From Microthyrium microscopicum (lineage: Eukaryota > Ascomycota > Dothideomycetes > Microthyriales > Microthyriaceae): 64,000 nucleotides of DNA. Position 1 is the stretch's first letter. Every line of letters begins with the position of its first letter. The notes beneath the pieces were generated by a model that saw only the letters and a list, made by a program, of their open reading frames with translations, was not told the origin of the DNA and did no database searches. The position numbers were made by a program, and so were the translations under genes. Shown piece by piece: positions 14,210-62,603 of the stretch. The DNA lies in NCBI GenBank assembly GCA_010405405.1, contig MU004234.1, positions 1,631,563-1,695,562 of the forward strand. The letters run 5' to 3'.

Positions 14210-14464
14210 ATTCTTGTAATGAAACGATGAGCTAGACAATTGCTCTAAGGATGAAATGTCAATCTCATAAAGCTGTGCAAAATCAACCTCAGGCTCTCAG
14301 CTGCTCGAAGTCGCGATATTTGGAGGCGCTTGAGGCGTTTGTGGTCGAGGCCGCAGCGTACGGAAGCGCGTCGCAGCGCCCCCACAAGAAGGACCAAGCT
14401 GTCGAGTTCGACATAGGTATAGCATTGAACCCGCTACATCCCTCTGCTTTCAGTACAAATAACA

Positions 14465-28622: not shown

Positions 28623-28989
28623 GTTCGCGCGTGAATGGTTTACTTTATATCTCTCTAACTCATATAGAGAGTTGTTGCTGGTGCTTTTCTTCAATTCCAA
28701 GCTCTTCAATGAAATGATTAGAGACCGATTCTATATGCTCCACGAATGTGATGGCAAGAGCTCCCAGATTCTGAAGAGTTGAGAATCTACCACCTATTGA
28801 AGAAAAGCTACTGGTATACAATTATGAAGCTATCTTTAAGGCAATTACATTGATCGTCAGATCGTCCAATGTGTGGGGAAGCAGCCGAGGTACCCCATGC
28901 GAGCTCAACGTTTCGAGCTCTCCATCATCAACACCAACAGCATTACCGTTTTTCTTGATACTTGCAATTGATCATAAAAGATTCTCACT
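28623..28989. promoter_or_regulatory. shared divergent promoter of the carboxylase subunit genes
   Basis: A 367-bp gap between the start codons of the biotin carboxylase gene (-) and the carboxyltransferase gene (+). The arrangement predicts joint control of the two subunits. No specific factor site was identified. Confidence 0.6.
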
Positions 28990-35069: not shown

Positions 35070-36571
35070 ACCGCCAAAGACTGGGGTCCGAGATACTAGA
35101 AGGCGTGCAATTACTATTGTCATGCCTGCTAAAAGTCGAAAAGTTAGATCAAGTTGGGTCAGCAGGACGCAGAAAAGCACCAAATTGGCGGGCCGAGTCT
35201 GAGCAATGTCAACAACCTCACGCCTATCGCACTTCATCTCGCCCGTCATACTTCATCCCATCATAACCCATTACGACCACCATCCCCATCATACCTGAAT
35301 ACCATCAATCCACAATGCCCATTATCCATTGCCGAATACACTTGATCCCCCTTGTTGCCATGGTTGAATAGCCCAGCAGTGTTCTGTACAGAAAGCAGAG
35401 ACAGTTGCTCATGTAGAGATGACATTATGTATGTAGACAGGATAGCACAATTAAAAAAATGTACTTTTCCAATTCTCATACTTGCTGATAGACAAATAAT
35501 TGACGCTGGCGCGTTGTACTGAATGGCTAACCTTTATAGGAGGTTTAGAAGCAAAGATTACAGTTTCCTAGACAATTTGAGGACTATCGGCTGGTAGCAT
35601 GGTGGGCAAAGGCGTTGAGTTCTCCGATGTCTCCGATAATCTATATGGTTGATGTCACGATCAATTAAGCATCACATATTTTATGTATATTTGCGCGACT
35701 ACATATGTACTTGATAGGGACTGAAATACCATGTAAGAAAGCGTAGCATATGGCAGCCAACAAACTTGATGAGACAGGCCACTTATTGTCCATTGATTGA
35801 TTTAGTACTGACTAAAGTGACCCACAAATGTCATTCAAATGGGCATTTGAACTAGTTGGCATATAATGAAGCGATAACAAGCTTTATGAAATCATGATTT
35901 TACTGCGAAATTAGGATTGAAGAAGGGGCAAGGAGATGAACTTCAGAAAGACGAATGGCACGCTTCCCATTCCGAATATTCGCATCTGCTACGCTTTGCT
36001 GTTGATTAAGTTTTTCTTCTTCAATACGTAGAAATGGTTGTGGAGTATTGAATGCGATGAGGATCAAAATATATGTTCTTCATAAGATGCGGTGGTAGAC
36101 ATCGCACTCGGTGGGAGCGTGCCCAATTATTTTCTCGATCAATTACCTTAGAGATCGATGATGAAGAATGGAAGCTCGTCCGTTTTCTGGGAAGGAGTAA
36201 GTAAGCTAGCGTGGGCTAGCCAACCAAGCTTTGGCAGGCCTAGCCGATAGCCAGGATTCCAGCTTCAATTACTATCACTCCAACCTCAATCATCACCAAC
36301 CATTTCCAACTTTCTACAACAAAGAAACACCCCATCAGCAATTATTACCTGCCCTCATTCTCCCTGAAAACCTAATTCTATCACTCCCCACAACCTCACC
36401 TCTCGCATAATATATTCTTCCAACCTTTGCTGACCTCATAAACTATCCGCCGAGTACCTCAAGAAACATCGATCGGGCCGGTCTATCTTCGACCTTCACT
36501 TCGACCATGAACCCTCCTGGGGCCCACCAACCGCTGTCTCCTTCTTCGCGAAGGTAGTTTATACACCCGCA
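35070..36571. other. intergenic, RanBP1 / fmp27
   Basis: About 1.5 kb. The last 330 bp are CT/CAA-rich, typical of a fungal 5' leader. Around 36198-36245 there are several short GCTAGC/GGCTAGCC inverted copies. No gene is recognised. Confidence 0.45.
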
Positions 36572-42500: not shown

Positions 42501-45500
42501 GGAGCAATCCGCTGCGAGATATTATGCTACGGTATATCCATCAAATAAGCCAGCGACGAGGTTTTGTCTACTACATGTCTCGGCCAGCGGTCAAGTTCAT
42601 CATTGACATTGTTGAGGAGCAAAACAAAGCTCGCGAAAGCTCATCCAGGCAACAAAGTGAGCGTCGGCCTGGTAGTACAGAGCCAGTCACGCCTCTGACG
42701 CCCATGCCGCCCGATTTGCCAAGTGATCGTGATGAAGAGGCACAAGGGATGATTCAGCAGCTACTCGAAGATGGTAAACGCTTTGTCGAGGCTGATGACA
42801 ACCCGGAAGATGAGACGCCGAAGAGCCCTGGACATGGCGGCCCAGGTGATGAGATTTCTCGCGAATTCCTCGCGCAGAACTCATATCATGTGCGGTTGAT
42901 TGCTCCTCAAATCCAGATGCAGAGCGAAAAGAACACCAAATCCGCGGTGCTTGTAACGGCTAAAGGAATGCAACTCCGAGTGGTCCAAATCATGGACAAG
43001 GACCGCATTACTGACGAAGTAAGCGGATTGGTGCAGCGGCGGTTCACTGCAAACATGGATAGTGTCCAGGTTTTCGTAACCAGCAGTAAAACATTCTCTT
43101 CTGAACTCCTTGAGCTGTATTCTGGCAATCGATATGGAGCACCATCCGGAACCTCCTGGCCACCTTGGGTCCCACTCGAAGACATGTATGACTTCCACGT
43201 CGATCCGTATGGCTTCTCGCGTGTTGTACAGCGCACTTCTGCTAGCATGCAGTACAACAAGTACAATACGCTTCGTCTCAAATACAACGATGATCTGACA
43301 AATGGCCAAGAAAACACGGAGGGTGACGAGAACGAGAGTCGTATGGACCATATCTGGGTCGACTTTCCCCAATTGCTCACGAAATGCAACTCCACCCAGT
43401 ACTATGCTCTCTACGTTATTGTCATGGATCTACTGCTTTATAGCGAGCCCCAAGAGAAAACCCGAGAAGAAAAGCTGGAGAAGATTATTCTTGCTTCGGA
43501 TTTCAGCGATTTGAGCGAAGCACCAGACATGGTCACCAAACTTCAAGAAAAAATTCGCACTTTGCAGGAAATCAAGCTCATGTTCCAATTACATGAGAGT
43601 CTTCTCACGCGACAGCAGTGGAAGGAGCGTATATTGCTCGAAGATGACATTGCGAAACGTGAAGATGAACTGTTCTTCATTATGAAAGCCATCACAACAT
43701 CCCAGCGCCAAATCGAGGACCGAATGCAGACCGGCCAGCCTACCGGTACACTGAAGTATGAAATCGCTGCCAAAGAGCTTGTTTGGCACATGGTCCGTGG
43801 ACTGAATGAATCTTTGATTGAACTCCAACTCAAGGATGTCCAATATCTTAGGACTGACAATACTGATGGTTCAAATGACAACACCATGGAACTTGGCAAG
43901 ATTGAGGGTTGGACTTTACTTTCCAACGCAAACTACCCACAGCTGATCGCGCCATTCGAAGAAGGCACCAAGAAAGGCGTCGGACAAGGTGATTCTGGAC
44001 CTAGTCCCATGGTTCGTGTACATTGGTATATGCTCGAAGCTGTGGCAGGCATCGTCGTCATGGAGAAATTCGAAGTCAGCATCTTCCCCATCCGGATTCA
44101 ACTCGAATACGACACAGGCATGAAAGTACTCGAGTACATCTTCCCGGGTTCTCTTTCATCTGGAAAAGACGCAGAAATTACGCCGTTCCTGAAGCATCTC
44201 TTGCCTACACATCAGGAAGAGGATGAGAATGAAAGTAAAGAGCAAGAGGATCACGATCCGGCCCCTGATATCATACCTGACCATCATTTGATCACACCTA
44301 CCGACAATTTGACTGGGGCAGGTGATCTAGAACTCCGCCTACAACCTACGTTGACACTGCCAGACTCGAGATCACCGAAATCGCCACGTAAGATGAAGCA
44401 ATCGACGGCCAGTAATTCTGACCTCAAACGCTTGAAAAATCTTGGCCATGCAGAGGGCACTGATCTGCGCAAGCTGCTGGCGCGCAAGAAAGACGGTGCC
44501 TCGACAGATCAGTTTCCTGGCCCAAAGGCAATGTCCAGAACCAATTCTCAAATGTCTGAAATGACCAAGGCCACAGAAACACCAAAGAGATTCGGCCTTC
44601 TCCGATCCACCTCCACCGCTAGCAATATTGCAGGTAATAAGAAGCAACAACAACAAAGATCGAACGATGTTTCTGAGATGATGGATCGAGCGTCAAAGTA
44701 TATGACTCTCTCTTATGTAAATGTCTCCTCCATGGTGCTTTGTCTAAGCTACAAAGGCAAAGGCGAACGCAACATCGTCACCGCCAACGTTCACGATCTT
44801 GTCTTCCGCCTTCCAACGCTCGAGTATCGCAACAAGACGTGGAGTACCTTTGACCTGGTCAATCATCTCCGCAAGGAAGTTGTGCAAGCTCTTCTCCGAC
44901 ACAGTCCTACCATTCTTGGCAATATGTTCACCCACCACCGTCCGAACAGAAATCAACAAAGTCGCCTGAGGGAAATGGCTAACTCGAGTGTCATATTGGG
45001 TAATGGCCTGAACGACTCGGCGGCAGCTCTCTCAATCCGCGATCCCAGCAAACACTTCTCTGATGTTAGCTCTTCCCGCGCTATGAGCACCACCGACTAC
45101 GATATCAGCTTCAATGATGATGAGTCTGGCTACCACTCGCGCGACCCTTCATTGCCTCGTGGCTCATTTGCTTCCAACCGTGAATCGCAGTACTCACGCG
45201 ACGAGGCTGGTCATAGCGCGACCAGCTCCGCGCCCTCGTCATCATTCCGCAACTCACATCATCTTTCCATGACTCCAGCTAATGGCAATGGAAATGGTCA
45301 TGGTGCTGACATCCCTGTACCCTCCATCGAAGCGGCGGACCGAGACCAGCTGCTCAAGTCACGCCCTAGAACGGCTTCTGGTGCAATGGCTCGTCTATCC
45401 GGCGCATTTCCGGCTCGAAGACCTAGCACTGCCCATTCAGAGTCGACTACGCCGTTCGTCACACCAGCGGGTTCGCCCGCGCCGGCAGTCCAACCAAGTT

Positions 45501-45766
45501 CCGCAAGTGGCAAAGATGTCGGTCGCGGAATGAGCTTTCGGGACCGCGTTAGGCGTCGTTCAAGGAGAACGACACCAGAACCACAGGATAGTCCGGGCTC
45601 AAGTCTAGCTGCTAGTCGAGAAATTGAAGAAGGTGGTGAGGAGGAGGTGAAATCGGAGCGGTAAGTCTATTTCATGCCAAAACTATACCGAATCAATACT
45701 AATGAGGCTTGTAGGAAAAGTAAAATACCGCTCGCGCGCTTCTTGCCTCATAGGCGGGAAAAGTAA
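36572..45766 (+). CDS. fmp27: Fmp27, bridge-like lipid transfer protein (BLTP2/Hobbit/SABRE family)
   Basis: Giant rod-shaped protein with a hydrophobic groove, thought to move bulk lipid at ER-plasma-membrane contacts (family: yeast Fmp27, human BLTP2, fly Hobbit, plant SABRE). Exons 36572-45660 and 45715-45766 give 3046 aa, in the family's usual range. A single N-terminal anchor (FVLGALVLLYLSTFVVFAVL, about 11-30) is followed by RBG-type beta-rich repeats. Diagnostic Fmp27 motifs are GFWDKIRLAFHSR (about 1396) and WPPWVPLEDMYDFHVD (about 2195). A coiled stretch around 2310-2400 (LQEKIRTLQEIKLMF) precedes the C-terminal region. The tail from about 2600 is Ser/Arg-rich and disordered. A 52-nt last exon adds a basic end (RKSKIPLARFLPHRREK). 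The 9-kb first exon is uninterrupted. Confidence 0.95.
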
Positions 45767-47483: not shown

Positions 47484-47637
47484 TGGTAGAACTTCTTGAC
47501 AGAGAAGCAAATTCTAAAATCGTGAGATCAAGATCTATGTCAAAACGCACGGACCGCTTGGTGTTTTAGACCTTTCACTTTGCCATTTTTCAATGTTGAG
47601 CCATCCATCTCCCATCTGGTTAATTTCCATACGCTTA

Positions 47638-47668
47638 CGGAAGCGCATTGCGGCCTACCCTTCCACAT
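47638..47668 (+). repeat. left terminal inverted repeat of the MITE
   Basis: 31 bp starting CGGAAGCGCATTGCGG; pairs with the right repeat with one mismatch. Confidence 0.88.
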
Positions 47669-48220
47669 CACAGAACACCAAAATCCAAAAAAATTCTAAC
47701 AGCATGTCTACATAAGATAGTATCCCTAGAGCCCCAATTTAGGATTTTAAACATAGTTTTAAAGATCACTAGAGAGCTTAAGATAAGGGCTTACTTTTGG
47801 TCTCTTCAAAAATAAATTTAAAGTATTTTTAGTTAATAAGATTAACTATACTTAAGCTATAAGGTTGATATTACTTTTTAGCTAAAATATGTTTGGCAAG
47901 TTAAGGCAGAAAGTATCTCTCTTGCTAAATTAGTAGGAAACCTACTAAATTAGTAGGTCGTTAAGCTAGGCTAGTGACTTCTCTACTAAATTGCCACTAT
48001 TATGTCATTCTAGCGATATCTTTACTAATATAGCGACAACCTTACTAAACCGTAGACTCATAAAAGACGGAATTTTGATCTTATTAACTTAAAAGAAAGC
48101 CCCTCGTCTATAATATAGATTAGCCTTTTTAGATACCTTAAAAAGGGTAGAATAGGGACGTAGGAAGGCCGTAAAGTTGTCAAAATGTGCATATTTGATG
48201 TTAGATTTTGGATGTTGCTA

Positions 48221-48251
48221 ATGTGGAAGGGTAGGCCACAATGCGCTTCCG
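48221..48251 (-). repeat. right terminal inverted repeat of the MITE
   Basis: 31 bp; read on the minus strand it starts CGGAAGCGCATTGTGG, differing from the left repeat at one base. Confidence 0.88.
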
Positions 48252-49003
48252 TATACGCTCAAGGAACTGGTCATAATTAGTTAAACATCGAATGTGTCTT
48301 TGACTCATTCCAATTTAGATTTAGTCCATGATAACCAGCGGACGTCCGCAAATACGGTAGCCCGTGGATCCGCGTTGACCCTCAGGGAATATCGAAAACG
48401 ACACCAATTGTCTTCCACAATTCATTCCCGCCGTGCGCTTCCATGATTATTGAGCGAGCCCATTTTCTTATGCAGCTTCCCCTCATCTCAACACCTGACG
48501 CGTATTCACGTGGCTACGCGAGATGCCAAGCATATTCGGGACAATTATTGTAGCGACTGAGGCCCGAATTTGGTCAGAGTTGAGTAATCAGGCTTCAAAA
48601 TCCTCCCATTCTCGCTCTGTTACTGCATGGTTGCGGACCGGGATGCAGGCATAGGGCGCGTTATGTCGCGTCTAGCTGCGGTCCTTATGCAATCATGCCG
48701 CATTCTCTTCGTACCAAGTCCAAATGTTTGGAATCGCTTCTTGAACAAGAAATACAGGCTTGCTCAATTGGGCGTTGCTTAGCTAATGACTAGATCCATT
48801 ATCTGCTGTAGGTGATTATGACTCAATCAGAAATGCTAACACGAGGTAGGTAATACAGGTGTGCTATATCCTGCATCTTGCTGTTGGTGATCTGTATAAA
48901 GTTGAGTACAGTCACCTAGTACTTGAAGTTGACCCTACTCTCATCAACCATCCTTCTTACCAACCAAAAACTAAACATATCAGACCCCAAGCAAATAGCC
49001 AAC

Positions 49004-49777
49004 ATGTCTAAAGCCGCACAAAACAAGCTCGCCATCCTCCTCAGGAGCCTCCACAAACCTGGCGACCCAGTAATCATGGCCAACGTCTGGGACGCTGTCA
49101 CCGCCGAAGCTCTCACCAAAGTCCCCGGTGTCAAAGCCGTCGCCACAGCATCCTATGCTATTGCAGCAGCTCGTGGCGTTGCGGACAACGACATGACATT
49201 CGAGCAAAACCTTGACGGCATCCGCTCAATTGCACCCAAAGTGGCCGCCGCAAACCTTCCACTCAGCGTAGATCTTCAAGACGGGTACGAAGATGTTGCC
49301 GCTTCCATCAAGGCTATCATCGAGCTTGGTGTCGTTGGCTGCAACCTTGAGGACTTCAACGACCGCACCAACTCACTTAGGCCAAAAGAGGAGGCCGTGG
49401 AGCGATTGAAGATTGCCATGAAGGCGGCAAAGGAGGCAGGTGTGCCTGACTTCTGTATCAATGCACGCACTGATGTGGTGGTGCATGGCGGATCGATCGA
49501 TGATGCGATTGATCGGGCCCATGCATACCTGGATGCTGGTGCACATAATTCCTTTGTTTGGGGTGGTGGAGCACGCGGATTGAGGACTGAGGAGGTGGCA
49601 AGGTTGGCTGAGGCATTGGATGGGCGGTTGAATGTCATTAGGAGGTTGACGCCTGAGGGACTGACGCTGGGCGAGTTGAAGGAGATTGGAGTTGCGCGGA
49701 TTAGTGTTGGTCCGACGCTACAGTTCAAGGCACTGGAGGCATTCAAGAAGGCGGCGCAGGATATGTTGGAGAAGTAA
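49004..49777 (+). CDS. PEP mutase / isocitrate lyase superfamily enzyme
   Basis: TIM-barrel enzyme that makes or breaks C-C, P-C or related bonds next to a carboxylate; family members include PEP mutase, oxaloacetate hydrolase and 2-methylisocitrate lyase. 257 aa from the ATG at 49004; the frame is open further upstream but that part is leader-like. The metal and substrate site appears as SVDLQDGYED (about 87-96), then GCNLEDFND and CINARTDVVV. The isocitrate-lyase KKCGH loop is absent, so it is not a glyoxylate-cycle enzyme. Many fungal relatives carry the label carboxyphosphonoenolpyruvate mutase without biochemical proof. It converges with the O-acetylhomoserine lyase gene, 257 bp between stops, and might belong to the same functional group. 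Confidence 0.85.
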   Translation: MSKAAQNKLAILLRSLHKPGDPVIMANVWDAVTAEALTKVPGVKAVATASYAIAAARGVADNDMTFEQNLDGIRSIAPKVAAANLPLSVDLQDGYEDVAASIKAIIELGVVGCNLEDFNDRTNSLRPKEEAVERLKIAMKAAKEAGVPDFCINARTDVVVHGGSIDDAIDRAHAYLDAGAHNSFVWGGGARGLRTEEVARLAEALDGRLNVIRRLTPEGLTLGELKEIGVARISVGPTLQFKALEAFKKAAQDMLEK

Positions 49778-50034
49778 GACAATCTTCTGCGAAGTATATG
49801 TAGCAGGATACAATGAAAGTAGAATCTTCACTCTCTAGTTAACGAAGTTTTGTTTAAGCAGTGTGACTTTTGAAATGTACCATAAGTTCAATGATACGCG
49901 ACGATAGTAAGTGGAAAACGGTACAAAAGAGATAGGATTCAAAGCTAACGTCATTAAATAGAATATCCATCGAGAGGCACTTCCCATCCTTCCCAAACTC
50001 CTGCTTTACAAACCAAGAACAAATATTATGCCTA

Positions 50035-51722
50035 CTAGTGCACTCCATTTGTACCATTCTCCTCTACGGCGACAGTTGTGCCATTTGTACCATTTTCTTC
50101 TACGGCGGCAGCTGTTCCGTTCGTAGGCTTCTCGCCAGCGGCAATTGTGCCATCAGTTCCTGGTTTGGGAGCACCAGTGGCCTTATCCTTCATGAAACCA
50201 CCTTCAATCAAGTTCATAGCAGTCTTGAACGGATCACTCTTTGACTTTGTGGCTGCTGGCAGACCGGCGGCAATGAACGCTTGCTCAAAGTCATGTTGGA
50301 TATCCTCAAATTCCTCCAGACCGACACTGACGCGAATGAGATCAGGGGTGACACCTCCCTTGATCTTCTCCTCGTCGGGTAATTGTTGATGGGTAGTGAC
50401 CCAAGGGTGAATAATGAGTGTCTTTGCGTCACCAACGTTGGCCAAATGACTGCAGAGTTTCAGATTGTTGACTACATCGCGGACCTGATCGACGTTGCCG
50501 GCCTGGTTATAGGATTAGCAGATGCATTTCATGCATAGAAGAGGACACTTACCACGCCGAATGTGAGAACACCGCCTTGACCATTTGGCATGTTCTTTTG
50601 CCCGTACTCATAGTCAGGGTGTGACTTCAAGCTTGGATGAAGAACCCAGTTGACAGAAGGATGCGCTTCAAGCCACTCGGCAAGCTGCTTGGTACTGTCG
50701 CAATGGCGCTTGCCTCGAAGTGGCAGTGTTTCTAGACCTTGAAGGAAGAGCCAGGCATTGAAGGGACTCATACATGGGCCAAGATCGCGCATAGAATCCA
50801 TGCGAAGCTTGGCTGCTAAAGCACCATAACCATATGTTTCCCAGAAACGCATGCCGTGGTAGCCATCAGCAGGCTCGGTGAATTCCGGGAATTTGCCAGA
50901 AGCAGACCAGTCAAAATGGCCACCATCGATTACAATACCGCCCATGCTGGTGCCGTGGCCTCCAATCCACTTGGTGCAGGAATGTGTGACAATGTCAGCA
51001 CCGAGAGTGAGCGGTCTAGAGACGAAGCCACCCATTCCGAATGTGTTGTCGACGATCAGTGGGATGCCATGTTTGTGGCATACTTCTGCAATGGCTGCAA
51101 TATCTGGAACACTGTGCTTGGGGTTGGAGATGGTCTCGATGTACACTGCTCGAGTGTTCTCGTCAATGGTAGCGTCGATATCAGCTGGCTCGTTACCAAC
51201 AACCCACTTGACGTCTATCTTAAACTTCTTCATATACACTCTGAACTGATTGTAGGTGCCGCCGTATAGCCAGCTGGTGCTAACAAAGTTATGTCCTGGT
51301 TGGCAGCAGTTGGTGATGGCCATGAACTAAGAACATAATGGTTAGCTGTGCCTGTAAAGCATATGATAGTACCTACTTGAGCAGCATGACCAGAAGCAGT
51401 AGCTACAGCTCCAACACCTCCTTCAAGCATGGACATGCGTGTCTCAAAAACGTTATTGGTGGGATTGCCCATGCGTGTGTAAACATATCCTTCTTTGGAC
51501 CAGGCGAATTTGCTGGCGCCATCTGCAGCGTCGGTGAAGTTATAGGCAGCGGTCTGATAGAGCGGAACTGCTCGCGATCCATTGACTGGATCTGGCTCTT
51601 GACCTCCATGGAGGGCGACTGTAGACCATGCTGGCGTCCTATATCAGATGATTAGATAAGCTTTTGAAATGAATGATGGAACCTTACTTGGAGACGTTGG
51701 CTAGGGAACCGGAAACTGTCAT
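50035..51722 (-). CDS. O-acetylhomoserine (thiol)-lyase, PLP enzyme
   Basis: PLP-dependent gamma-replacement enzyme: O-acetylhomoserine plus a nucleophile (sulfide in methionine synthesis) gives a gamma-substituted amino acid. Exons 51688-51722, 51377-51638, 50553-51326 and 50035-50502 give 512 aa. Diagnostic stretches are [52 protein letters not shown] and [16 protein letters not shown] with the PLP Lys at 218, plus [18 protein letters not shown] and GLEEFEDI near the end. After the fold ends (about 460) there is an extra tail of roughly 50 residues with a duplicated 12-residue Asn/Gly unit. The sequence departs from housekeeping Met17/CysD at several sites (CCQPG, AAYNF), suggesting a paralogue. 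The nearest regulator is the Zn2Cys6 gene upstream. Confidence 0.92.
50044..50115 (-). repeat. tandem 36-bp coding repeat in the lyase tail
   Basis: Two adjacent copies encode [12 protein letters not shown] and [12 protein letters not shown], each with two Asn-Gly steps, directly before the final VH. A single TNG just upstream suggests a third, decayed copy. Confidence 0.85.
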
Positions 51723-52574
51723 ATTTTCTGATATGAATGCTTAAATAGTAGATAAGGTGAATTGCTAAAGGGAGAGTAGCTTCAAGTTGAATGAGTTTCA
51801 AGTCAAAAGTGGTACTTTTTGAGGGAAGATATAAGTGATGTGATCGTGTAGTTTGAAGTAGACTGAGCTAATTATCGACCTGATTGCAGATACCATCTCG
51901 TTATAGATATATAAGTATCTGATTTGTATCTTAGTCTTCAAAAGATGCTCGATTCAGTATTCGGCTTGCTCAATCAGGTTTCATGATGTTGCGGCATGTC
52001 AACGCGGCCAGGGATCTATCAAATCCCGAATCCATCCCACACCTCAACAACCAGACACCGAGATGCCTGTTAGCTCTAATGCGGCCCCATAAGCTCTGCT
52101 TCATCTATGAACCCGAGATCCGGGATTGTGGTAGGCGTAGTGCGTTCTTCTAATGCGTTGTACGATGCTTGTATGCTCCTGGGAGACCGGAAGTGCTGAC
52201 AGGCTACCCTTTGAGGTAGTTTGAGACAGTTGTCCCAATTAGAGGCATCAACAGGAAGACTGTGGTGAGGCATGAGCATTAGATACCAAGCTTGTGCGGC
52301 TAGCTAATAGGTTCGAACTCAAGATCTTCCCCATTGTGAGATTATGCATGATAGGACCACTTGCTGGAAGATTGGTCTACAATAATTTTCCATCTCATGT
52401 TTTCTGATTTGCCACTACGACAATCGGTATTATTACATTCTATAAGCTATCGAGTATTTTGTTCCAAGCATTGGTATCTATTGGCTACATAATCCTTCAA
52501 GCCAAACCAGTCAGCCGCTCAACACTATTCTACTTGTTTTGATGTAGTCACACTCCATGCAATTGGGATCAACA
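51723..52574. other. intergenic, lyase promoter / 3' side of regulator gene
   Basis: About 850 bp. It holds the lyase promoter, a CCG-N5-CGG motif at 52113-52123 (391 bp from the start codon) and a tRNA-like fragment near 52297-52375 on the minus strand. No protein gene seen. Confidence 0.45.
52113..52123. promoter_or_regulatory. CCG-N5-CGG everted half-site pair
   Basis: CCGAGATCCGG. Zn2Cys6 dimers bind CGG half-sites in this everted form, with a spacing set by the protein. One such match in a promoter of this size is not unlikely by chance. Confidence 0.25.
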
Positions 52575-55081
52575 TTAATTCCCGAAGTGGGTCTGAATGA
52601 ACTCTTGAATTTGATCTAAACATTGTCAGTGAATTCATAGACTTGCAAATCCAGTACCTTTACATACCTCGCATGCCTGCTATGGCTTCGGAAGCTATCG
52701 AGTAGTTCTCCAGAGTGCTGGCAATAGAGACAAGAGCTCGGTGCATTTTGATGAACAGAGTTTGTACATAAATATCATTAGAAGCATTTTTCTCTGCCAA
52801 TGTCTTTTGCCGCAGCATTAGAAGAGCATATCCGGCTTGCATGGCACAACAAGACATGGAAGGCATCGTTCGAGGCATAGGCTTGTTCGAGATCAGAAAT
52901 GGATATGGCAAGGTCTCAAATGATTGGACAATATTGAGCGCTGACTTGAGGCATATCTTCTGGGAAGCTCGACTGCTGAAAGGGAAGAGCTCAATCAAAT
53001 CACCGGTGCTCCGGAAGTCTTGTCCTGATGAAGCAACTGTGGGCTCACTTGGTGTTAGTGGTAGGTCCAAATCCATGTTAATATTCATGGATATCATGGA
53101 TGTGCTGCAGCATGCCATGGAAGACATGGAGGGTGTGCGGTCTCGAAAATCCAAAGGAGACGAAATCGGTTTCAGGTCGCAGTATTTCTTGCTGAAAATG
53201 GGGTGATCGAAGAAGGCACAAAATCTGTGCAGTTTTATTCTCGCACTGGATTCATCTCGTTAGTTCTGGGAAACAAAATATAGCATTCACATACCTATTT
53301 AGTTTCACACGAGCCATGCTTTTGAGCGTCTCAGCAACAATTTCTTCATCCGAGTCAACAGGGTTGAAGCTGGGCATGCATTGGGCATATTTGTCCGCCT
53401 GGGCGACGAGAGGCGCCATTTCTTGCTCAAGTTGTTGCATACGATCACATATTATGTCAAGATTTTCGTTCCTCTCAAGTGTCTTGTTTAGATCGACCAC
53501 AAATAGCGTGGCAGATAGTATTGTTTGTTGAGCTTGAATGAAGAAGGGCCATGCCTATGATTTGTCAAGAAGATTTCCATGACTGAGCCACAGGATACTT
53601 ACGTCTATATCGGAGTTCGTAGAAGGATATAGAGTCGTAAACGACGGATCGTAAAGTGATATGATCGGTGGCTGTTCAGTAAAGTCAGGCTAGCGCCAGG
53701 CAAGTCTTCAGAAGGCAACTTACACAACTGCTATAAATTGAAGCCTGACAGACACATATATACTGTACACATGTTAGAGTTTGGAGTAGTGGAAGAACGT
53801 CTTTTGGTAACGTACAGTCATCCACCAAGCCCTTCTTCTTGACTCCTCGAACTGGTCAAATTCTCCTCCTCTGGAGTGTAGGGACAAATTCATTGCGGCA
53901 ACTAAAGCTTGGCCTGCACGGCTGCGCATGCGGTTGATGTTGCCTCTTTGCGAATACTCGTATATGCTGAGAAGATCCAGTGCTATAATGCTTTCTAGCT
54001 CTACCGGAACCATGGGATGAAATGACGCTCGCATACTACGATCATGTGAGTCTGTAAGAGTATCACTAGGATCAACTGAAGAACCAGGAAGTTCAGACTC
54101 GATTTCTATGCTTTCAAGAGCAGATTGGACCAGAAAGTAGGAATATTTTCTTCGAAACAGCACCGCTTCTTCATTTGCCCAATCTGCATCCTGCTCATGT
54201 GGAATTAAGGCCAGAATAGCCGCAATGACGAGGCTTAAGGGTGACGAGGGATGATACTCGTCATCACCTGCTTCCAAGTCGTCCATGGAATAGGCAATAG
54301 CATTGTCACAAAGTGAGGCTGATAGGCTAGGTGGAGGTAAAATTGGAAAGTACTGGTGTATGAATATGTAATAGCCGTTCAATCTAAACTGAAATTAGCC
54401 AGCCGGCTCATTACTAGATAGGCTGCTTCTTTGAGAATGGTCTCTTACAAATCTGAATCGCTTCCATATGCTCGAACAATGGGTGTGGCTGGCAATGAGG
54501 GTTCTTCCTCGTATAAAGATCCGGAGCCTGGAGTCGTGGAGGGTGGTGTCGGATAGTTGAAGATGCTGTCAAAGATCATGTCGCTATCCTGATCCAATTC
54601 TTGATGACCTTGGGTTTGCGCCAGCCCTGCGCCAGGGTTCACCATCGATAAGACCTCGCCAGAAAAGTGTATTGAGTTAGGAAGATCTGTGTATCGTGTT
54701 GGATCAGTCAAAGGGAGTGGCGAGCAAAGAATCGAATCCTGATCCGCAGGTTGCGTGATTGATGATTTTGATGATAGGGCTTTAGACGCAGCTCGCCGTG
54801 ATACTCGTGGACCACCTCTTTTGCTAGGAACGTATATGCATTCTCTACTTTTCTTTACACACTGTCCCATTGTCAGCCGAATTTCAAGGAGATCTCGCTT
54901 TCGACTTTGACTCACACTAGTGCAGTCTCTCTTCCCATCACATCGCGTTCTAGAAGCACGACTAGAAGCATAGCATGTCAGCCTGGGTACTTCGTTCTTC
55001 GATTTCCTTGTCATGAACTCACCAAGCTGTACATGCTGCTTTGACTGGAGGTTGAGCGAGCTTTTTTCTTGTCGTATGCAT
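52575..55081 (-). CDS. Zn2Cys6 transcription factor, possible pathway regulator
   Basis: Fungal binuclear zinc cluster activator, 690 aa. Nine exons join in phase: 55023-55081, 54916-54961, 54449-54861, 53816-54383, 53724-53762, 53603-53671, 53295-53554, 52668-53245 and 52575-52615. The zinc cluster is complete: Cys17, Cys20, Cys27, Cys33, Cys36 and Cys43 (CTAC, RASRTRC, DGKRDC, TSC, VKKSREC), followed by a basic linker SKRGGPRVSRR. Two introns interrupt the cluster itself. The middle homology region is the fungal-specific TF domain (IHQYFPILPP, RRRAWWMTYICVCQASIYS, SLYDPSFTTLYP, ARIKLHRFCAFFDHPIF). The gene sits between the O-acetylhomoserine lyase and nitrilase genes, as expected of a cluster regulator. 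Exon 5 is only 39 nt. Confidence 0.9.
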
Positions 55082-55722
55082 TTTGCTAACGGTGTTCGGG
55101 ATTCAATTACGAGATAATAAACCTAGAATGCCGCATTGTAGGGGGCTTGTATCTCTATTTAGTCAAGGGCACACCGCGTGGCGATACATTGTGAAGGAAG
55201 AAGTGATAAGGCTACATATGTGTGCGGCATCTGCGGCATCTCAAGGGATACGCTATCCAGGTATTTCTGACAGGCCTTATCGCACATCTGCCGCAAGCAC
55301 CCCACAGATAAATGTAATTGTGCTCATGTTGAAGGTAGGAAATCCCGGATTCCTGGTTAGAACAAGCTGTTGTGGCTGTCAAACAGCTTTTCTACTTGTT
55401 GAGTCTGGGCTTCAGACTATTGGGATACGGAACGAGCGGGAACTGGTTGTACATGCTTTTTACTTTCTGTTTTATCAGCACAAAGGGACAACGGAAGAAA
55501 TGGAACAGGTTGGTTGTCATTCGAGCACAAGAGGCACCCATGGCATGGACAATAGACGATAAGTTAGTGGATAGTAGGATAGAGATTGAAGTTGGAGAAT
55601 GTTTATATACCCCTATTATGATGGTCCGTGCACATATTGAGCTTTTCCCTCCTCCATTTCTTATTCCACTGCTTCCACCACTACAACAACCCTTTATCCA
55701 AAGATATCCATATCCATCTCGC
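55082..55722. other. intergenic, regulator promoter / nitrilase 3' end
   Basis: About 640 bp between two minus-strand genes. Plus-strand open frames here have no recognisable content and overlap the last nitrilase exons. Confidence 0.45.
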
Positions 55723-56993
55723 TCATCCTTGAAACTGGACGTTCACTGCAGGCTTGGTGTTCACAGTCAAGGAGCTGCTGTATGTCAGAAATGTGCTTCT
55801 TTACCAACGCGCCGAAGAACTACTCACAAAACATCGGGACGAGAATAACTGCCCACAGGATCAAAGTCGAGCTGCAGGATCGTTAGCGGGAGCAGCATAG
55901 ATTTTACATTTACATACTCGTGCCTCGACGATGTCTGATAGCTTCAGTGTCGCGTATACGATCTCTTCTTTATCCCACACGGGCTCAGCGATGAATGTAC
56001 CCAAAGGCCCTATGATGCAAGAACCACCATGCGATAGAATATCGTTGGGCTCCCATCGAGAACCATCTGGCTTGCGATCATAGTGACCTTCCGAGAATGG
56101 CGGGTAGTCTTTTGGAAAGTCCGATACCTTTGCAAACTGATTGACGTTCATCACAAAACATCGTCCTTCTTTCGCGATATGCTTCATTGTTGCTGTCCAT
56201 TCTGGAAGATCGTCTGCGTTTGGAGCAATGTATATTCTGGTAACAAGAGTCAGCTGTAATACAAGAGAAGATCACGTCATATACTCTATTCCTTGTTGAT
56301 AGAGAGCCATTCTTGCTGCGGGCATGTAGTTTTCCCAGCAGATGAGGCCACCAATCTTGCCGACCTCAGTTTGTGCCACTGTCAGGCCATCTCCAGCCCC
56401 GCGTCCCCAAACAAGCCTTTCTGCGGCGGTTGGTATCAACTTCATATATAGTAAGTAGCTTCGAATATATTGGAACTGGAGCTCACTACCTTGCGATGGC
56501 GTGACAGAATCGCGCCCTCTCTGGATAAGAGTAAGGAAGTACAGTACAGCGTTCCTTGATCTTTCTCAATGATACCGACCGATAGGAAGATCTCATTGCT
56601 TCTGGCTACCTCTGACAGGAATTCCGTCTCGCTTGATGGTATGGCAACAGCGGATTCGTAGTATCGGGCATACCACTTTCGTCCTGCACACTTATCAGCT
56701 CCGCAAATAGGTTTAGATAAGGAGAGAATAGCCAACCACGAGGCTCACGAGCACCAATGGTTGCATCAAATGCATATCGCCAAGGATAAGCCGTTAGAAA
56801 TCCTTCCCTATTGGAAGAATTAGTGAGCCGCACCAATCAAGCACAGAAACTCGTACGGAAATGCAACAATCTGGGCTCCATTGGTCGCAGCTTCAGTGGC
56901 TAATGCCGATAATTTCTTCAAAGTATTTGGCAAGTCGAATGAAACTGGGGCTGCTTGAACAGCAGCAACCTTCACTACTTTTTGGCTTGACAT
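55723..56993 (-). CDS. nitrilase
   Basis: Hydrolyses a nitrile to the acid and ammonia through a Glu-Lys-Cys triad. Seven exons join in phase: 56857-56993, 56737-56807, 56490-56683, 56285-56439, 55918-56236, 55828-55871 and 55723-55777, giving 324 aa. Triad: Glu47 (FPEGF, completed across the first splice), Lys134 (RHRKLIPT) and Cys168 (GGLICWENYMP). RHRKLIPTAAERLVWGRG and CWEN mark the true nitrilase branch; cyanide hydratase and amidase relatives differ here. The last two short exons give LDFDPVGSYSRPDVF and LTVNTKP, the standard nitrilase C-terminus. Intron 2 has an unusual donor, GTTGGC. It is divergent from the homoserine O-acetyltransferase gene, 382 bp between starts. The substrate is unknown. 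Confidence 0.92.
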
Positions 56994-57375
56994 GCTTGAA
57001 ACTGCCCTTTGGATGACTGACTAAGGATTCCGAGGTGGCCTGAATTTGGGAAAAGTGGTTTTTACGACTATCGAACAGACCGGGAAGAATGTTTATGAAG
57101 CGATCGTCTTTCCACTTGCCGCATATCCTGCCATTCTGACACCCTCGCGGCTCATAAGTTTGAGGCTCGGTGTCTGACCCAAAAGCAAATCCCGACTACG
57201 GCTGATCTTCCCATGGCTGCACAAATGCCTGGAAACGCATCTGGGATCGAAAACGGAGTAATTCTTAAGCTTAGGACGACAATGTGTTTTGCCGAGTGTG
57301 TTGGGTAAATATCAAAAGTTCAAATTACTGCCACAACGGTGACGTTTCACGCTTCCACATTACTACTTGCCCACC
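56994..57375. promoter_or_regulatory. divergent promoter, nitrilase / acetyltransferase
   Basis: A 382-bp gap between the start codons of the nitrilase (-) and homoserine O-acetyltransferase (+) genes, implying shared control. It contains the everted CGG pair at 57192-57201. Confidence 0.6.
57192..57201. promoter_or_regulatory. CCG-N4-CGG everted site (Leu3-like spacing)
   Basis: CCGACTACGG, two everted CGG half-sites with a 4-bp spacer, the geometry used by yeast Leu3. It lies in the divergent promoter and could be bound by the neighbouring Zn2Cys6 protein, but one match can arise by chance. Confidence 0.35.
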
Positions 57376-58818
57376 ATGACACATTATAGTCATGCTGTCA
57401 GCACCACGCTCAAGCAGAACCAAAAGACAATGCACTTGACTTTGGAAAATACCGAAGCTACACTACTGGATACCCATCTGGAATCACAGAATCTTTATTC
57501 CGAGTTCATTCGCGATCAGAATTTCGCGGTGATACCTTCTTTCATACTTGAATCTGGAGAAGAGCTTCTCAACTGTCAAATTGCTTACAAAACTTGGGGA
57601 CAGCTTAGCGCTCGAAAGGACAACGTTCTAGTTGTATGCCATGCTCTGACTGGCAGCAGTGACTTGGTAGATTGGTGGCGACCACTTTTTGGACCAGGGA
57701 AAGCACTTGACCCAACAAGATATTTTATCTTTTCTGCCAACACTCTAGGCTCTCCATACGGTAGTAGCTCTGCTCTGACTCTGGATCCAAGAACTAAAGC
57801 TCCATACGGATCAAACTTCCCAAATACTACCATTAGAGATGACGTGCGGTATGCCACCTCTTCATGCCTCATACCGATACAGTCACTGACACAATATAGA
57901 GCACAGAAGCTTGTACTTGACGCGCTTGGCATAATCTCTGTTGCAGCTGCTGTGGGAGGCTCAATGGGAGGCATGCATGCCCTTGAGTGGACTCTTTGCA
58001 CGCCACGGAACTACGTTAAGAGTCTTGTCGCTGTCGCTACCTCGCTTTATCACAGTGCATGGGGCATTGCGTGGGCAGAAACACAACGGCAAGCCATATA
58101 CATGGACCCCGTGTTCGATGAGGGAAACTACGAGCAAAATCCCATGGGCCAACCAGCAGCTGGCATGACAGCCGCCAGAATGATAGCCATGTTGACATAC
58201 CGGTCGTCTGAGAGCTTCGTCGCCCGCTTTGGTCGCAAAGAAAATACAACTGCCAGACAGGGTGTCAAAGTCCGTAACATCGCGCCTCATCTGTCAAGGC
58301 CTGTGTCGGCAAACAAGAATATTGACATGAGACCTCTTTCGAGAAACTCCGATCCTTATTTTTCTGTTCAAGGTTATCTGGATTACCAAGGATCGAAGTT
58401 TCTGTCTCGATTTGATGCCAACTGCTATCTTCACCTGCTTAAGAAAATGGATTCTCACGATATCTGCCGTGGTCGAACGACCAATAAGAACGGCATTAGT
58501 CACTCAGACGATGTCATCAAAGCTGTTTGTTCAAGGGCGCCGTTTGGCGCATTGGTGGTGGGTGTCAGCTCAGATGTCTTATTTCCTGTGGCAGAGCAGA
58601 AACATATTGTAGATGTTTTGCCGGAAGCCAAGCTCCGCATTCTGCAGTCGAGAAATGGTCATGATGGCTTCTTGTTGGAGTTTGAAGAGTTGAATCGCTT
58701 GATTATAGAGCATCTCCAAGGAAAACATCCCGAGATGTACAAAGGGGCACCAACGCCTTATCAAGTTCCTAGTCTTGTATATCAACGTGCGCCAAGCATG
58801 GTTGGTGAAATGGAATGA
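57376..58818 (+). CDS. homoserine O-acetyltransferase
   Basis: Alpha/beta-hydrolase-fold enzyme that acetylates homoserine with acetyl-CoA, giving O-acetylhomoserine, the substrate of the lyase at 50-51.7 kb. Exons 57376-57848 and 57900-58818 give 463 aa. The 51-nt intron has no stop and keeps the frame, so the gene looks intronless by ORF; splicing restores the family sequence TTIRDDVRAQKLVLDALG. The triad is Ser179 (GGSMGGMHALEW), Asp383 (SSDVLFP) and His412 (NGHDGFLLEFE). Other family marks are VVCHALTGSSD, WWRPLFGPGKALDP, NTLGSPYGSSS and YLDYQGSKFLSRFDANCYL. It is shorter and more diverged than housekeeping Met2 as I recall it. It is convergent with the aspartate kinase gene. Confidence 0.93.
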   Translation: MTHYSHAVSTTLKQNQKTMHLTLENTEATLLDTHLESQNLYSEFIRDQNFAVIPSFILESGEELLNCQIAYKTWGQLSARKDNVLVVCHALTGSSDLVDWWRPLFGPGKALDPTRYFIFSANTLGSPYGSSSALTLDPRTKAPYGSNFPNTTIRDDVRYATSSCLIPIQSLTQYRAQKLVLDALGIISVAAAVGGSMGGMHALEWTLCTPRNYVKSLVAVATSLYHSAWGIAWAETQRQAIYMDPVFDEGNYEQNPMGQPAAGMTAARMIAMLTYRSSESFVARFGRKENTTARQGVKVRNIAPHLSRPVSANKNIDMRPLSRNSDPYFSVQGYLDYQGSKFLSRFDANCYLHLLKKMDSHDICRGRTTNKNGISHSDDVIKAVCSRAPFGALVVGVSSDVLFPVAEQKHIVDVLPEAKLRILQSRNGHDGFLLEFEELNRLIIEHLQGKHPEMYKGAPTPYQVPSLVYQRAPSMVGEME

Positions 58819-59159
58819 TGATCATTGTATATTAGAACATTTTATAGATTTCAGTTGATTCATTGTACAAAGACAGAGGCTTTTCCGTAGTGTCCTTGTG
58901 TCCTTGTATGTCCCAGGTTATCATTTGTCCACGAGAAATAAATTAGAGAAACGATTTGGCCCCAAAGTACATCATAGTAGGCATCGAAATGATCGCTAGC
59001 ATGTCAAGAAGACGAATTTCAACCCAAGAATTTTTTCCTTCATAGACTTCAACTCAAGGTGGTTAAGGTAGTACATACCATAGACTTCTTATGTACGTTT
59101 CTTCAAAAGAGGCAAAGATATCTTCAAATCAAGATATAAATTTGAATATAACAATATAT
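58819..59159. other. convergent intergenic, acetyltransferase / aspartate kinase
   Basis: About 340 bp between two 3' ends; AT-rich from 59090. No feature recognised. Confidence 0.45.
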
Positions 59160-61019
59160 CTAGTATAACCAAGGCCCCTTAATAAAATTATTTTCCATCT
59201 CCGATTTCGACGGAATCTTCAGCACATTCTCATGAATAACCGACGTAGCCAACAATGCCTGATCTTTTCGAACAACGACACTGCAATTTCATTAGTTTCC
59301 TCAATGCAAAGACAGCGGATAGACACTTACGATATATTGATCTCACTGGCTCCCTGACTGATCATATATATGTTGATCTTTGCCTCCGCCAACGCATCAA
59401 AAATCTCACTCGATACACCGACCATGTTCTTCATCTTATGTCCTACGACGGAGATGATCGCCCTCTCGTCCGAGACATTCACAGTTCCAAACGTCTCCAG
59501 ATCCCCGATCAGCCGCTGCAAGCGCTCTGGGCTGTCGATATTCTCCAATGCAACGGATATGCTTCGTTCGCTGCTTGTTACCAAGTCGATGTTGAGTTTG
59601 TGTTTGGTAAACTGCTCGAGCACGCTGACGAGAAAGATGCTGAATTTGCGCTTCTGGTTGCATAGCACGTTTAGAACAGTGATCGGCTCTTTTGCTGTCA
59701 CCGCTGTAGGCACGCGACGGTTTTGGTGCTTTCCGTGGTAGCCGTTACTGAGCAGGAAGGCTTGACTTGGTGGTGAGGCTGGACGGGTCGGTGCGGGCGA
59801 GAGCTCAGGAGATGAAGAGGTACTGCGAGTGGGATAGATTCGTGTGCCGGCACCGCTAGGATTGAAAACGTTCTTCAGTTGTAAGCGTATGCCAGCGTGG
59901 CGAATTTGATCGACTGCAAGAGGGTGGACGACCTGAAGTATAGTTAGATGAGAGTCTCATAACCAGCTATAGGCAGTAAATCGTACCTCACTGCCGTAAT
60001 ATGTAAGTTCTGCAGCTTCCTCAACCGTCACTGCAGGCAGCAAACGCGCAGAAGGTATCTTCCTCGGGTCCGACGTGTATATCCCGTCCACTTCCTTCCA
60101 AATCTGAAGTTCATGAGCTCGAAGACCGAGAGCACATAGTGCGGCACAGAAGTCTGAGTAGCCGCGACCAACTGCTTTCATCAAGGAATCAGGCATGATG
60201 CCAAAGAAGCCTATATCTACTTAGCAACAAGCACACGGATCAAAGAAGCCACACGGACCTGTAAGAACCGGAAGACGTCCATCACATTGCTCAATCTTTA
60301 ACGCAATCTGTTGAGCCAGAAGAGGGTAGACTTCAGATCCTAATTGTTCTATAGCATATCTTTGATTGCTGACAGAAGAGCCGAAGGCTTCTTCCACGAG
60401 GTTGTCAAGGAATACCGCTTGTGCCGGTATACCCTACCAGGTTATCAGTAACCGGATGAAGACCAAAGTATATCAAAGAGAACTAACCTTGACTTGAAGT
60501 GCCGCAGCAACAATGATACAAGCAAGTCTTTCTCCAAGCGCAAGTATTCGATCCTTCGCTCGAGGCGAGAGCTCTCCAACTGTCTACCATTTGTTAGCAT
60601 TCGAACGAATTAGCATCCACAAACTTGCTCACCTGCGCTGCGATCATAAAGGCTCGTATCTGCTCGCATTCCTTGGAAACTGTCAGACAAGCGGCTTGTA
60701 GTGTTTCCTTCGCGCTGGCTTCAGTCGACTTTGAAGCAAGATTTTCGAGTATAGAAAAATGATGATCCTTGAGGACATCAAAGACATTGTTCATTTGAAT
60801 CTGTGATGCTAAAGATGTAGATGAGATGAGCTCGATGCATTGTAATAGCAAACTTGTTGTTCCAGAGTTCTTCGTTTTGCCAGAGATGGCTGAACAGACG
60901 ACCGCTACGTTGTTTCGTGCCCAGAATGATGGTATGATTTCACCACAGATGCTGTCTAGTAGCTTTCCTAAGCTTGTTCCTCCATACTTTTGAACAATCC
61001 AATCTTCTTGACGATGCAT
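59160..61019 (-). CDS. aspartate kinase
   Basis: First step of the aspartate pathway: phosphorylates aspartate, leading to homoserine, threonine and methionine. Exons 60633-61019, 60488-60583, 60259-60433, 59987-60210, 59331-59932 and 59160-59280 join in phase to 534 aa. The kinase domain shows WIVQKYGGTSLGK (residues 7-19), VAVVCSAISGKTK, LSPRAKDRILALGE, PVLTGFFGIMP, GRGYSDFCAALCALGL, IWKEVDGIYTSDPR and ELTYYGSEVVHPLA. In the FFGIMP region most homologues have FFG plus a longer loop. The regulatory ACT pair starts near residue 365 (ITVLNVLCNQKRKFSIFLVSV; IISVVGHKMKNMVGVSSEIF; INIYMISQGASEINIS). Whether it is feedback-sensitive cannot be read from sequence alone. It could be the housekeeping Hom3 or a pathway paralogue. 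Confidence 0.92.
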
Positions 61020-61574
61020 TTTGTAGGTTAGTATTTTTGACTGGGGAGAAACGTTTCAGTGACGATGACAGGTAGAGGAGAGCTATTTGATATATTGTGA
61101 GTTAATACAGACGACGTAACACTTTAATGCATTTTCTAAATGCCATGCCTGGGAGCATTGTTGGTTGATGCCGCACTGGCGGCACACAAGCAACAACTCG
61201 GGGTTTGCTGGGCTTCGGGATTTGGAGTATCGCTCAAGAGCCCATCTCAATGGAACTTGAGCATTTAGCCTTTGGACAGCTCCTATTGCAGAATGCTTGA
61301 ACAAAGGGCTGAGTGGGAACTCCGAATTGGATTCTAGCCCATGGGACGGCGTAGAAGTGATCTGAGAGTATAAACAAATTCTTTGCACTAATGTCTCTCA
61401 TTCGATTCCTTGCCTTGGGGATGTGAAGTCCAGAGTCGTGTGCAGTTCCTATTCTTACAACTAAACTTACAAATTGATTTACAGGATGTGGCCACTACGA
61501 AATTTCGCTATGTCGCTGATTGAGGGACAATTCTGCCATAGACTAGACGTTTGAACAGAAGAACTGAGCTGAAT
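61020..61574. other. intergenic, aspartate kinase promoter / hydrolase 3' end
   Basis: About 555 bp between minus-strand genes. A CCG-N6-CGG pair lies at 61171-61182, a spacing different from the two other candidate sites, so it is weak evidence. No gene seen. Confidence 0.4.
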
Positions 61575-62603
61575 CTACGTCTTAGGCCCGTTCTCTACTG
61601 AACCAGCCTCTGGTACGAGTTGAGCAAGTACTTCTTCTAGTTTACTCTTGGCTAAGTCGAAATGACTGCCATCGTACTCTGTGAGAATACTGTGAGGTAG
61701 TCGTTCGTTCAGGTAACGGATTTGCTGCACCGGCGCGTTTTTGTCCTGAGTTCCGTGCCATATTTGCACTTTATCATAATCAACATCTTCGAAGTCGAAG
61801 CCCCAGTCCAAATCAGATAGTAGCTCAGCTTCCTGTGTGGTCCCTCTTGCACCTTGCGCAAATGCTTCAAAAATAATGCGGAATATAAGTTCTCTCCGCT
61901 CAGCGACAGACTCTTCGGCTGACACCGTCTTGTCTCCAATTTCAGGCTCTCCCCTTCTTAGCTGCGACTCTTTCTTCTCATCCTTGAGCAGCCCATCAAG
62001 ATAACGCGTCACGACATCTGTCTGCGCCGTCCTCTTGAGGAAATTCACCATTGCGTCTGCAACCATTGTGAATCCAGCAGGCCACGACCGTACCGCCATA
62101 GCAGTCATATGGCCCAGCCGTGGTACACCCGCCGTCCCCGCGCGCCATGGCCCTGCACTTGCAAAGAGTCCCACCGCCGACATCATCTCGTGAGGTAGTA
62201 CGCGCGCACAAGCCAGCGCATACGGCCCTCCACCTGACCCACCAAGCACAGCAAAGCGCTCGATGTTGACATGGTGTGCAAACTCGAAGACATCAGCCGG
62301 CCAATCGAGTATTTTGCGGTTAGGCTGAAATGTGCTGAGGCCGAAGCCTGGACGGTCAAGAGCGAAGAGCCGGATGTTGCGCCGATGGGCTAGCTTCGTG
62401 ATGGACCCAGCTTCGAGCCGTGAGGAGGGGAAGCCGTGGAAGAACAGGAGTGGGTAGCCGGTGGGTGAGCCATACTCTGCGAAGCCGAGAGTACGGCCAT
62501 CGGGGAGTGTGAGGGTCTGGTTCTCGAGATTTGGTTTCGACGTGTGGATGAAGCGCGGTGGAGATGAGGATAGCGAGCGGGTGAGTGTCGTAGGGATTTT
62601 CAT
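61575..62603 (-). CDS. alpha/beta-fold hydrolase, substrate unknown
   Basis: Single exon, 342 aa from the ATG at 62603; the frame continues upstream to a TTG but with no earlier ATG. The N-terminus (KIPTTLTRSLSSSPPRFIH) is basic and Ser-rich and may be a mitochondrial signal. Core motifs are GYPLLFFHGFPSSRLEAG with the oxyanion HGFP, DRPGFGLST, nucleophile Ser in VLGGSGGGPYALACA, acid Asp in HGTQDKNAPV and His in DGSHFDLAKS. It is a general alpha/beta-hydrolase_1 member. It lies next to the aspartate kinase gene on the same strand but is not clearly part of that group. Confidence 0.87.
   Translation of the reverse strand: MKIPTTLTRSLSSSPPRFIHTSKPNLENQTLTLPDGRTLGFAEYGSPTGYPLLFFHGFPSSRLEAGSITKLAHRRNIRLFALDRPGFGLSTFQPNRKILDWPADVFEFAHHVNIERFAVLGGSGGGPYALACARVLPHEMMSAVGLFASAGPWRAGTAGVPRLGHMTAMAVRSWPAGFTMVADAMVNFLKRTAQTDVVTRYLDGLLKDEKKESQLRRGEPEIGDKTVSAEESVAERRELIFRIIFEAFAQGARGTTQEAELLSDLDWGFDFEDVDYDKVQIWHGTQDKNAPVQQIRYLNERLPHSILTEYDGSHFDLAKSKLEEVLAQLVPEAGSVENGPKT

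Follow-up and report, generated by a model that had tools for sequence, protein, structure and literature searches.

A 64,000-nucleotide stretch of the Microthyrium microscopicum genome (contig MU004234.1, positions 1,631,563 to 1,695,562; referred to here as the window) contains six neighbouring genes at 49004-61019, encoding an aspartate kinase, a homoserine O-acetyltransferase, an O-acetylhomoserine (thiol)-lyase, a Zn2Cys6 transcription factor, a nitrilase and a phosphoenolpyruvate (PEP)-mutase-family enzyme. This locus raises the question of whether they are the ordinary methionine-pathway genes of the fungus, neighbours without common function or a metabolic set in its own right, and of what such a set would make. 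Our analysis indicates that the locus is very probably a real, dedicated gene set. As to its function, we tentatively put forward, at somewhat less than even confidence, a co-regulated metabolic set that produces O-acetylhomoserine independently of methionine metabolism, in which the lyase uses cyanide and the nitrilase yields glutamate.

The six genes named in the initial annotation are all present, their reading frames are complete after splicing of GT-AG introns of 46-71 bases (splice sites picked by hand), and profile searches agree with the names. The O-acetylhomoserine (thiol)-lyase paralogue (50035..51722, minus strand, 4 exons, 512 residues) scores 584 bits against TIGR01326, for which the curated cut-off is 495, and keeps the pyridoxal phosphate (PLP) lysine motif HSCTKW together with the other family motifs. 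The Met2-like homoserine O-acetyltransferase paralogue (57376..58818, plus strand, 2 exons, 463 residues) has a GGSMGG motif and scores 352 bits against NF001209 (cut-off 331) and 410 bits against TIGR01392, below the cut-off of 500. The aspartate kinase paralogue, which includes an ACT domain (59160..61019, minus strand, 6 exons, 534 residues), reaches 302 bits with TIGR00657 (cut-off 209). The Zn2Cys6 transcription factor (52575..55081, minus strand, 9 exons, 684 residues) matches PF00172 at 27.5 bits (cut-off 21), and the branch-1, NIT4-like nitrilase (55824..56993, minus strand, 6 exons, 307 residues) is divergent from the Met2-like gene, with 382 bp between them. The single-exon PEP-mutase/isocitrate-lyase family gene (49004..49777, plus strand, 257 residues; PF13714, 226 bits) is of uncertain membership in the set. 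Pfam domains matched across the set are Zn_clus, PEP_mutase, CN_hydrolase, AA_kinase and ACT. At its C terminus (50035-50250) the lyase carries roughly 70 residues of low-complexity sequence in which EENGTNG is repeated, and the chains of its nearest solved relatives end within about 10 residues of the aligned part.

The possibility, raised by the initial annotation, that these are the only copies in the genome (36.9 Mb, 20 contigs) was checked, and another lyase, kinase and Met2 exist on separate contigs. The second lyase, on contig C3, is 55% identical to the window lyase; the second aspartate kinase, on C6 and the sole other one found, is 42% identical to the window kinase; and the second Met2, at C1:2.598 Mb, is 46% identical to the window Met2-like protein (these copies were spliced by a home-made protein-to-DNA alignment). 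The described divergence of the window lyase and acetyltransferase from housekeeping forms is thus borne out by the identities to their nearest other genomic copies. More distant PF01053 loci lie on C1, C10, C11, C12 and C6, those matched by the lyase query at 29-38% identity, and more distant MetX-family loci lie at C1:2.06 Mb (39%) and C12:0.77 Mb (31%). We presume that the C3 lyase, C6 kinase and C1 Met2 are the housekeeping copies: the lyase falls in a group with FUB7 and 8ovh, a solved fungal homocysteine synthase, no further kinase was found beside the one on C6, and of the Met2-like loci that on C1 at 2.598 Mb lies closest to the window protein. The genome search found a single locus each for aspartate-semialdehyde dehydrogenase and homoserine dehydrogenase. 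Since the three window genes have other copies and the two middle steps are single-locus, the duplication covers the opening kinase step, the acetylation and the replacement, as in the FUB gene list of Fusarium. That the window genes are themselves the housekeeping methionine-pathway genes, as their activities would allow, is very improbable: other copies exist for all three, and it is the C3 lyase, not the window lyase, that groups with 8ovh and FUB7. Such an identity for the set was therefore rejected. A CefG-like role for the Met2-like protein was also considered, as deacetylcephalosporin C acetyltransferase is its best match among solved structures (285 bits), and was rejected: CefG is 51% identical to the other Met2 and 43% to the window protein, so there is no special CefG link.

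Signs of possible shared regulation come from five promoter regions: 1000 bp ahead of the PEP-mutase gene plus four intergenic stretches, one each upstream of the lyase, the regulator and the kinase and one common to the nitrilase and the Met2-like gene. The heptamer TGCGGCA occurs at eight sites over all five regions, against a background of three in about 48 kb of the window, and an octamer, CGGGATTT, has a single site in four of them, all but the PEP-mutase region, and no other site in the window; a single occurrence was seen in 41 kb of other loci. Upstream of the lyase (51723..52574), TGCGGCA lies at 51990 on the plus strand and CGGGATTT at 52021 on the minus strand. The regulator region (55082..55823) holds four TGCGGCA sites (55129, 55223, 55232 and 55289) and CGGGATTT at 55340, minus strand. 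In the 382-bp divergent promoter of the nitrilase and Met2-like genes (56994..57375) both are on the minus strand, at 57117 and 57187, respectively. Before the kinase (61020..61577) TGCGGCA is at 61169, minus strand, and CGGGATTT at 61216, plus strand; the remaining TGCGGCA site belongs to the PEP-mutase region. Neither motif was found in the three upstream stretches of the presumed housekeeping copies (960, 480 and 999 bases). Both motifs contain CGG, as do many Zn2Cys6 sites. Counts of MetR/Cys-3, GATA and CCAAT motifs in the promoters were uninformative.

Only one in 1500 random sets of five segments matched the enrichment of TGCGGCA in all five. Some 7-mer, whatever its sequence, was present in all five segments of 199 of the 1500 sets, and 56 held one at least as enriched as TGCGGCA. 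In 78 of 3000 random draws the four segments of a quartet had some 8-mer in common, so CGGGATTT alone is modest evidence, and four further TGCGGCA sites lie within the coding sequence of the set. The modest single-motif tests leave room for an explanation by which the genes have no joint role, being diverged paralogues that chance has brought together around a general nitrile-degrading enzyme. We consider this quite unlikely, since three paralogues of one pathway branch lie close together, the nitrilase and Met2-like genes share a short divergent promoter and two motifs are common to four promoter regions. Three such paralogues within about 11 kb of a genome of this size are unlikely to have come together by chance. 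The common promoter motifs argue for co-regulation, as far as DNA sequence can indicate it, and the adjacent Zn2Cys6 regulator would be the protein that controls the set. Together with the other copies in the genome, they support what had been predicted for this locus: a second, diverged route that supplies O-acetylhomoserine and encloses a regulator gene. A genome-wide search for CGGGATTT followed by TGCGGCA at 20-50 bases gave one match, the regulator promoter (reversed control, 0), and a search for CGGGATTT followed by TGCCGCA at 10-40 bases gave two, the lyase promoter and C5:2.02 Mb (reversed control, 1). Across the genome, therefore, these two of the set's arrangements revealed no wider regulon, the C5 site being the sole match outside the set.

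The same comparison bears on the PEP-mutase-family gene, which may lie outside the set: one TGCGGCAT site is present about 300 bases upstream, but CGGGATTT is missing there. The nearest solved relative of its product is 4mg4, named 'Phosphonomutase' (123 bits). At 49268-49288 the enzyme reads VDLQDGY where this relative has VDLESGY, an acidic motif residue being replaced by Gln.

The lyase could also serve a conditional methionine or thiol-scavenging route, taking sulfide or methanethiol under stress while the nitrilase handles co-occurring nitriles, for example from plants. The retained O-acetylhomoserine sulfhydrylase motifs and the TIGR01326 score above cut-off are in keeping with such a role, which we nevertheless regard as unlikely: another Met17-type lyase and another Met2 exist, and ATGRYRYCAT, which we take to be the MetR/Cys-3 motif, is absent from all five promoter regions of the set. 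The last point is a weak control, because the motif is not found before the three other copies either.

To place the lyase, we built a tree of 24 sequences, 18 from prokaryotes and six others that included the window lyase, the C3 copy, FUB7 and 8ovh ('homocysteine/cysteine synthase'), presumably the yeast enzyme. The prokaryotic sequences derive from the genomes of 35 of the 80 nitrilase-relative loci described below, 33 of which gave a match; 30 loci were extracted, 18 were used and 12, partial or more distant, were dropped. With 95/84 support the window lyase, whose branch has a length of 0.89, comes out as sister to a group made up of 8ovh, the C3 copy and FUB7, a placement to be read with caution, as the branch is long and the residue composition of this sequence differs from the rest. 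FUB7 (PDB sequence) shows 72% identity with the C3 copy, against 49% with the window lyase. A tree constrained to unite the window lyase with FUB7 was rejected (P value of the approximately unbiased test, p-AU, 0.0014), and one uniting the window lyase, FUB7 and the C3 copy without 8ovh was weakly rejected (p-AU 0.034). Identities, tree placement and the first constraint rule out that the window lyase is the FUB7 orthologue. A bacterial origin is likewise unsupported, the window lyase being placed with the fungal enzymes, on its long branch.

These results qualify the resemblance to the Fusarium fusaric acid (FUB) cluster that had been pointed out for this locus. One part of it stands: FUB3-, FUB5- and FUB7-type activities lie side by side with a Zn2Cys6 regulator, as in excerpts on the FUB cluster (PMC6738028, PMC10967133). 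The other part does not, as the lyase falls outside the Met17 and FUB7 group; the kinase and acetyltransferase resemble FUB3 and FUB5 in activity. Judged from the lyase, the likeness is one of kind, not of descent. With a lyase whose branch lies apart from FUB7 and the C3 copy, the cassette appears to have been assembled more than once, at least with regard to the lyase. The partners differ as well. The polyketide synthase (PKS) FUB1, the non-ribosomal peptide synthetase (NRPS)-like FUB8, the flavin mononucleotide enzyme FUB9 and the major facilitator superfamily transporter FUB11 have no counterpart seen here, and the window set holds a nitrilase instead. The lack of a PKS or NRPS in the window, already noted for this stretch, was upheld: neither inspection by eye of the lists of open reading frames (ORFs) nor Pfam searches of 15 window ORFs beyond the set, with two more from the right flank, showed one, in a scan for PKS, NRPS, oxidase and transporter genes that left small exons and the left flank outside. 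By the tests made on these sequences, the window set is not a FUB cluster member.

The cluster comparison nonetheless suggests a FUB3/5/7-like biosynthesis of a gamma-substituted amino acid or a derivative of one, in which another branch would provide a carbon, nitrogen or sulfur nucleophile for the lyase to couple with O-acetylhomoserine, and a nitrile in that branch would be the substrate of the nitrilase. The same three activities next to a Zn2Cys6 regulator fit this proposal, and the PEP-mutase-family enzyme could fit such a path. A precedent is flavunoidine, for which a passage of PMC8902786 describes a fungal PLP enzyme, FlvA, that builds an unusual amino acid from O-acetylhomoserine outside methionine synthesis. 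FlvA differs in being fused to an oxygenase, and its partners are the short-chain dehydrogenase/reductase FlvB and the NRPS FlvI; that passage names no aspartate kinase. Against the proposal stand the lack of a PKS, NRPS, oxidase or transporter among the scanned window ORFs, the position of the lyase outside the FUB7 lineage and the occurrence of the motif pair, in the two arrangements and spacings searched, at only one other genomic place. We regard it as possible, though doubtful.

The nitrilase contains the Glu-Lys-Cys triad E47, K134 and C168, the cysteine lying in CWENY; CWE around the catalytic cysteine is the branch-1 nitrilase motif. Its nearest solved relative is plant NIT4 (6i00, 281 bits; 46% identity to the NIT4 stretch), followed by cyanide dihydratases at 160-167 bits and the cyanide hydratase 9ofa at 115 bits, scores by which cyanide hydratases and dihydratases are not its closest relatives. 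Seven CN-hydrolase loci were found in the genome and two contain CWE: the window gene and C6:2.13 Mb, whose product is 33% identical to the window nitrilase and is also nearest NIT4 rather than cyanide hydratase (228 versus 55 bits). A six-frame search of the genome without introns, which could miss one, showed no cyanide hydratase. NIT4 is specific for beta-cyanoalanine, according to an excerpt of PMC6928751. Passages of PMC7503981 report that two purified fungal enzymes, NitTv1 and NitAb (52% and 40% identity to NIT4, respectively), make Asp and Asn from beta-cyanoalanine, their best substrate by more than tenfold, other tested substrates reaching at most 8.6%. An earlier whole-cell study had found NitTv1 approximately 12.5 times more active on fumaronitrile (excerpt of PMC6928751), a preference that could reflect uptake, according to a passage of the later paper (PMC7503981). 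The type of the window nitrilase thus fits a cyano-amino acid substrate, as far as relatives can tell, and is not peculiar to this locus.

In the cyanide reading, which the initial annotation had already put forward, every reaction, including the choice of nucleophile, is inferred. The aspartate kinase would start the flow from aspartate, and the single-locus aspartate-semialdehyde and homoserine dehydrogenases would supply both middle steps. The Met2-like enzyme would then acetylate homoserine to O-acetylhomoserine, and the lyase would swap the acetate for a nucleophile by gamma-replacement. Cyanide would be the likeliest, giving 2-amino-4-cyanobutanoate; it is the one simple nucleophile that would convert O-acetylhomoserine directly to a nitrile. 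Hydrolysis by the NIT4-like nitrilase would yield glutamate and ammonia, perhaps with some glutamine. The predicted net conversion is aspartate + HCN to glutamate + NH3. A Bacillus O-acetyl-L-homoserine sulfhydrylase forms gamma-cyano-alpha-aminobutyric acid (excerpt of PMC9317851), and the same activity is tabulated for 'Bacteria' in a passage of a 2026 paper (PMC13257105). That enzyme shares its name and the proposed reaction with the window lyase; it is bacterial, and the passages mention no accompanying nitrilase or gene set. Glutamate as an end product, being part of primary metabolism, would account for the lack of a PKS, NRPS, oxidase, transporter or tailoring enzyme among the ORFs scanned.

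The scheme would be a fungal counterpart of plant beta-cyanoalanine synthase and NIT4, in which a PLP enzyme that fixes cyanide is likewise followed by a NIT4-type nitrilase (excerpts of PMC6928751 and PMC7503981). The two differ in the PLP enzyme and its substrate, O-acetylhomoserine here and cysteine in the plant, and in the product, proposed to be glutamate here and asparagine or aspartate in the plant. That the fungus has a set dedicated to cyanide assimilation via O-acetylhomoserine to glutamate, under its own regulator and as an independent, one-carbon-longer invention of the plant logic, is a doubtful but possible extension.

Several observations weigh against the cyanide reading, in addition to the random-draw and coding-sequence counts of the motifs. 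NIT4-type enzymes are known to prefer beta-cyanoalanine, a compound that is shorter by one carbon than the substrate proposed here and that could arise from cysteine without the window lyase. The route would be costlier than a cyanide hydratase, and the PEP-mutase gene has no role in it. NIT4-like nitrilases are common in Ascomycota, with more than 500 relatives of NitAb (passage of PMC7503981), the other NIT4-like nitrilase of this genome lies outside the set, and prokaryotic relatives are equally near the window nitrilase (44-51% identity among the best 80 of at least 567 confirmed); these are the grounds on which its type is not peculiar to the locus. None of the other window genes was found beside the nitrilase in any of those 80 relatives, some of whose flanks were shorter than the intended 6 kb. 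The nitrilase facts thus favour a cyano-amino acid substrate but also speak against an enzyme type peculiar to this locus.

The genes next to the set encode, according to Pfam, a Kelch-repeat protein and an alpha/beta hydrolase; then comes a putative tryptophan-synthesis gene, named from its translation. Between the Kelch and PEP-mutase genes, at 47636-48253, is an element of 618 bp, AT-rich inside and bounded by 53-nt inverted ends that are 83% complementary, which looks like a miniature inverted-repeat transposable element or a decayed DNA transposon. Farther off, the product of a single uninterrupted frame of 3076 residues (36434-45664) belongs to the Hobbit/FMP27 family, matching PF10344 at 849 bits. 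At 26548-30531 a biotin carboxylase with a biotinyl domain (minus strand), spanning two overlapping frames and probably containing an intron, and a carboxyl transferase (plus strand) are divergent neighbours, as in an acyl-CoA carboxylase pair. At 11900-14209 lies a gene with a heterokaryon-incompatibility (HET) domain, directly preceded upstream by a 176-residue frame with several cysteines, and a 446-residue frame at 14429-15769 resembles a multi-span membrane protein and has no Pfam match.

Neither this gene set nor a cyanide-detoxifying, nitrogen-recovering route through O-acetylhomoserine in fungi was found described among the open-access papers listed, judged by titles, abstract openings and passages, with subscription papers mostly outside. 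What appears new, as a variation on a known theme, is a cassette dedicated to O-acetylhomoserine supply with a lyase of a different origin from FUB7, working like the supply part of the FUB cluster and perhaps like cyanoalanine synthase plus NIT4. Our results suggest that a duplicated aspartate-to-O-acetylhomoserine cassette extends beyond fusaric acid, with the same steps, other partners and a lyase of separate descent, and that it may be a recurring means of feeding PLP-dependent gamma-replacement chemistry. If cyanide is not the nucleophile, the set would mark an unknown amino acid product; if it is, this would be a cyanide-detoxifying and nitrogen-recovering fungal route, in a species whose genome showed no cyanide hydratase by the six-frame search.

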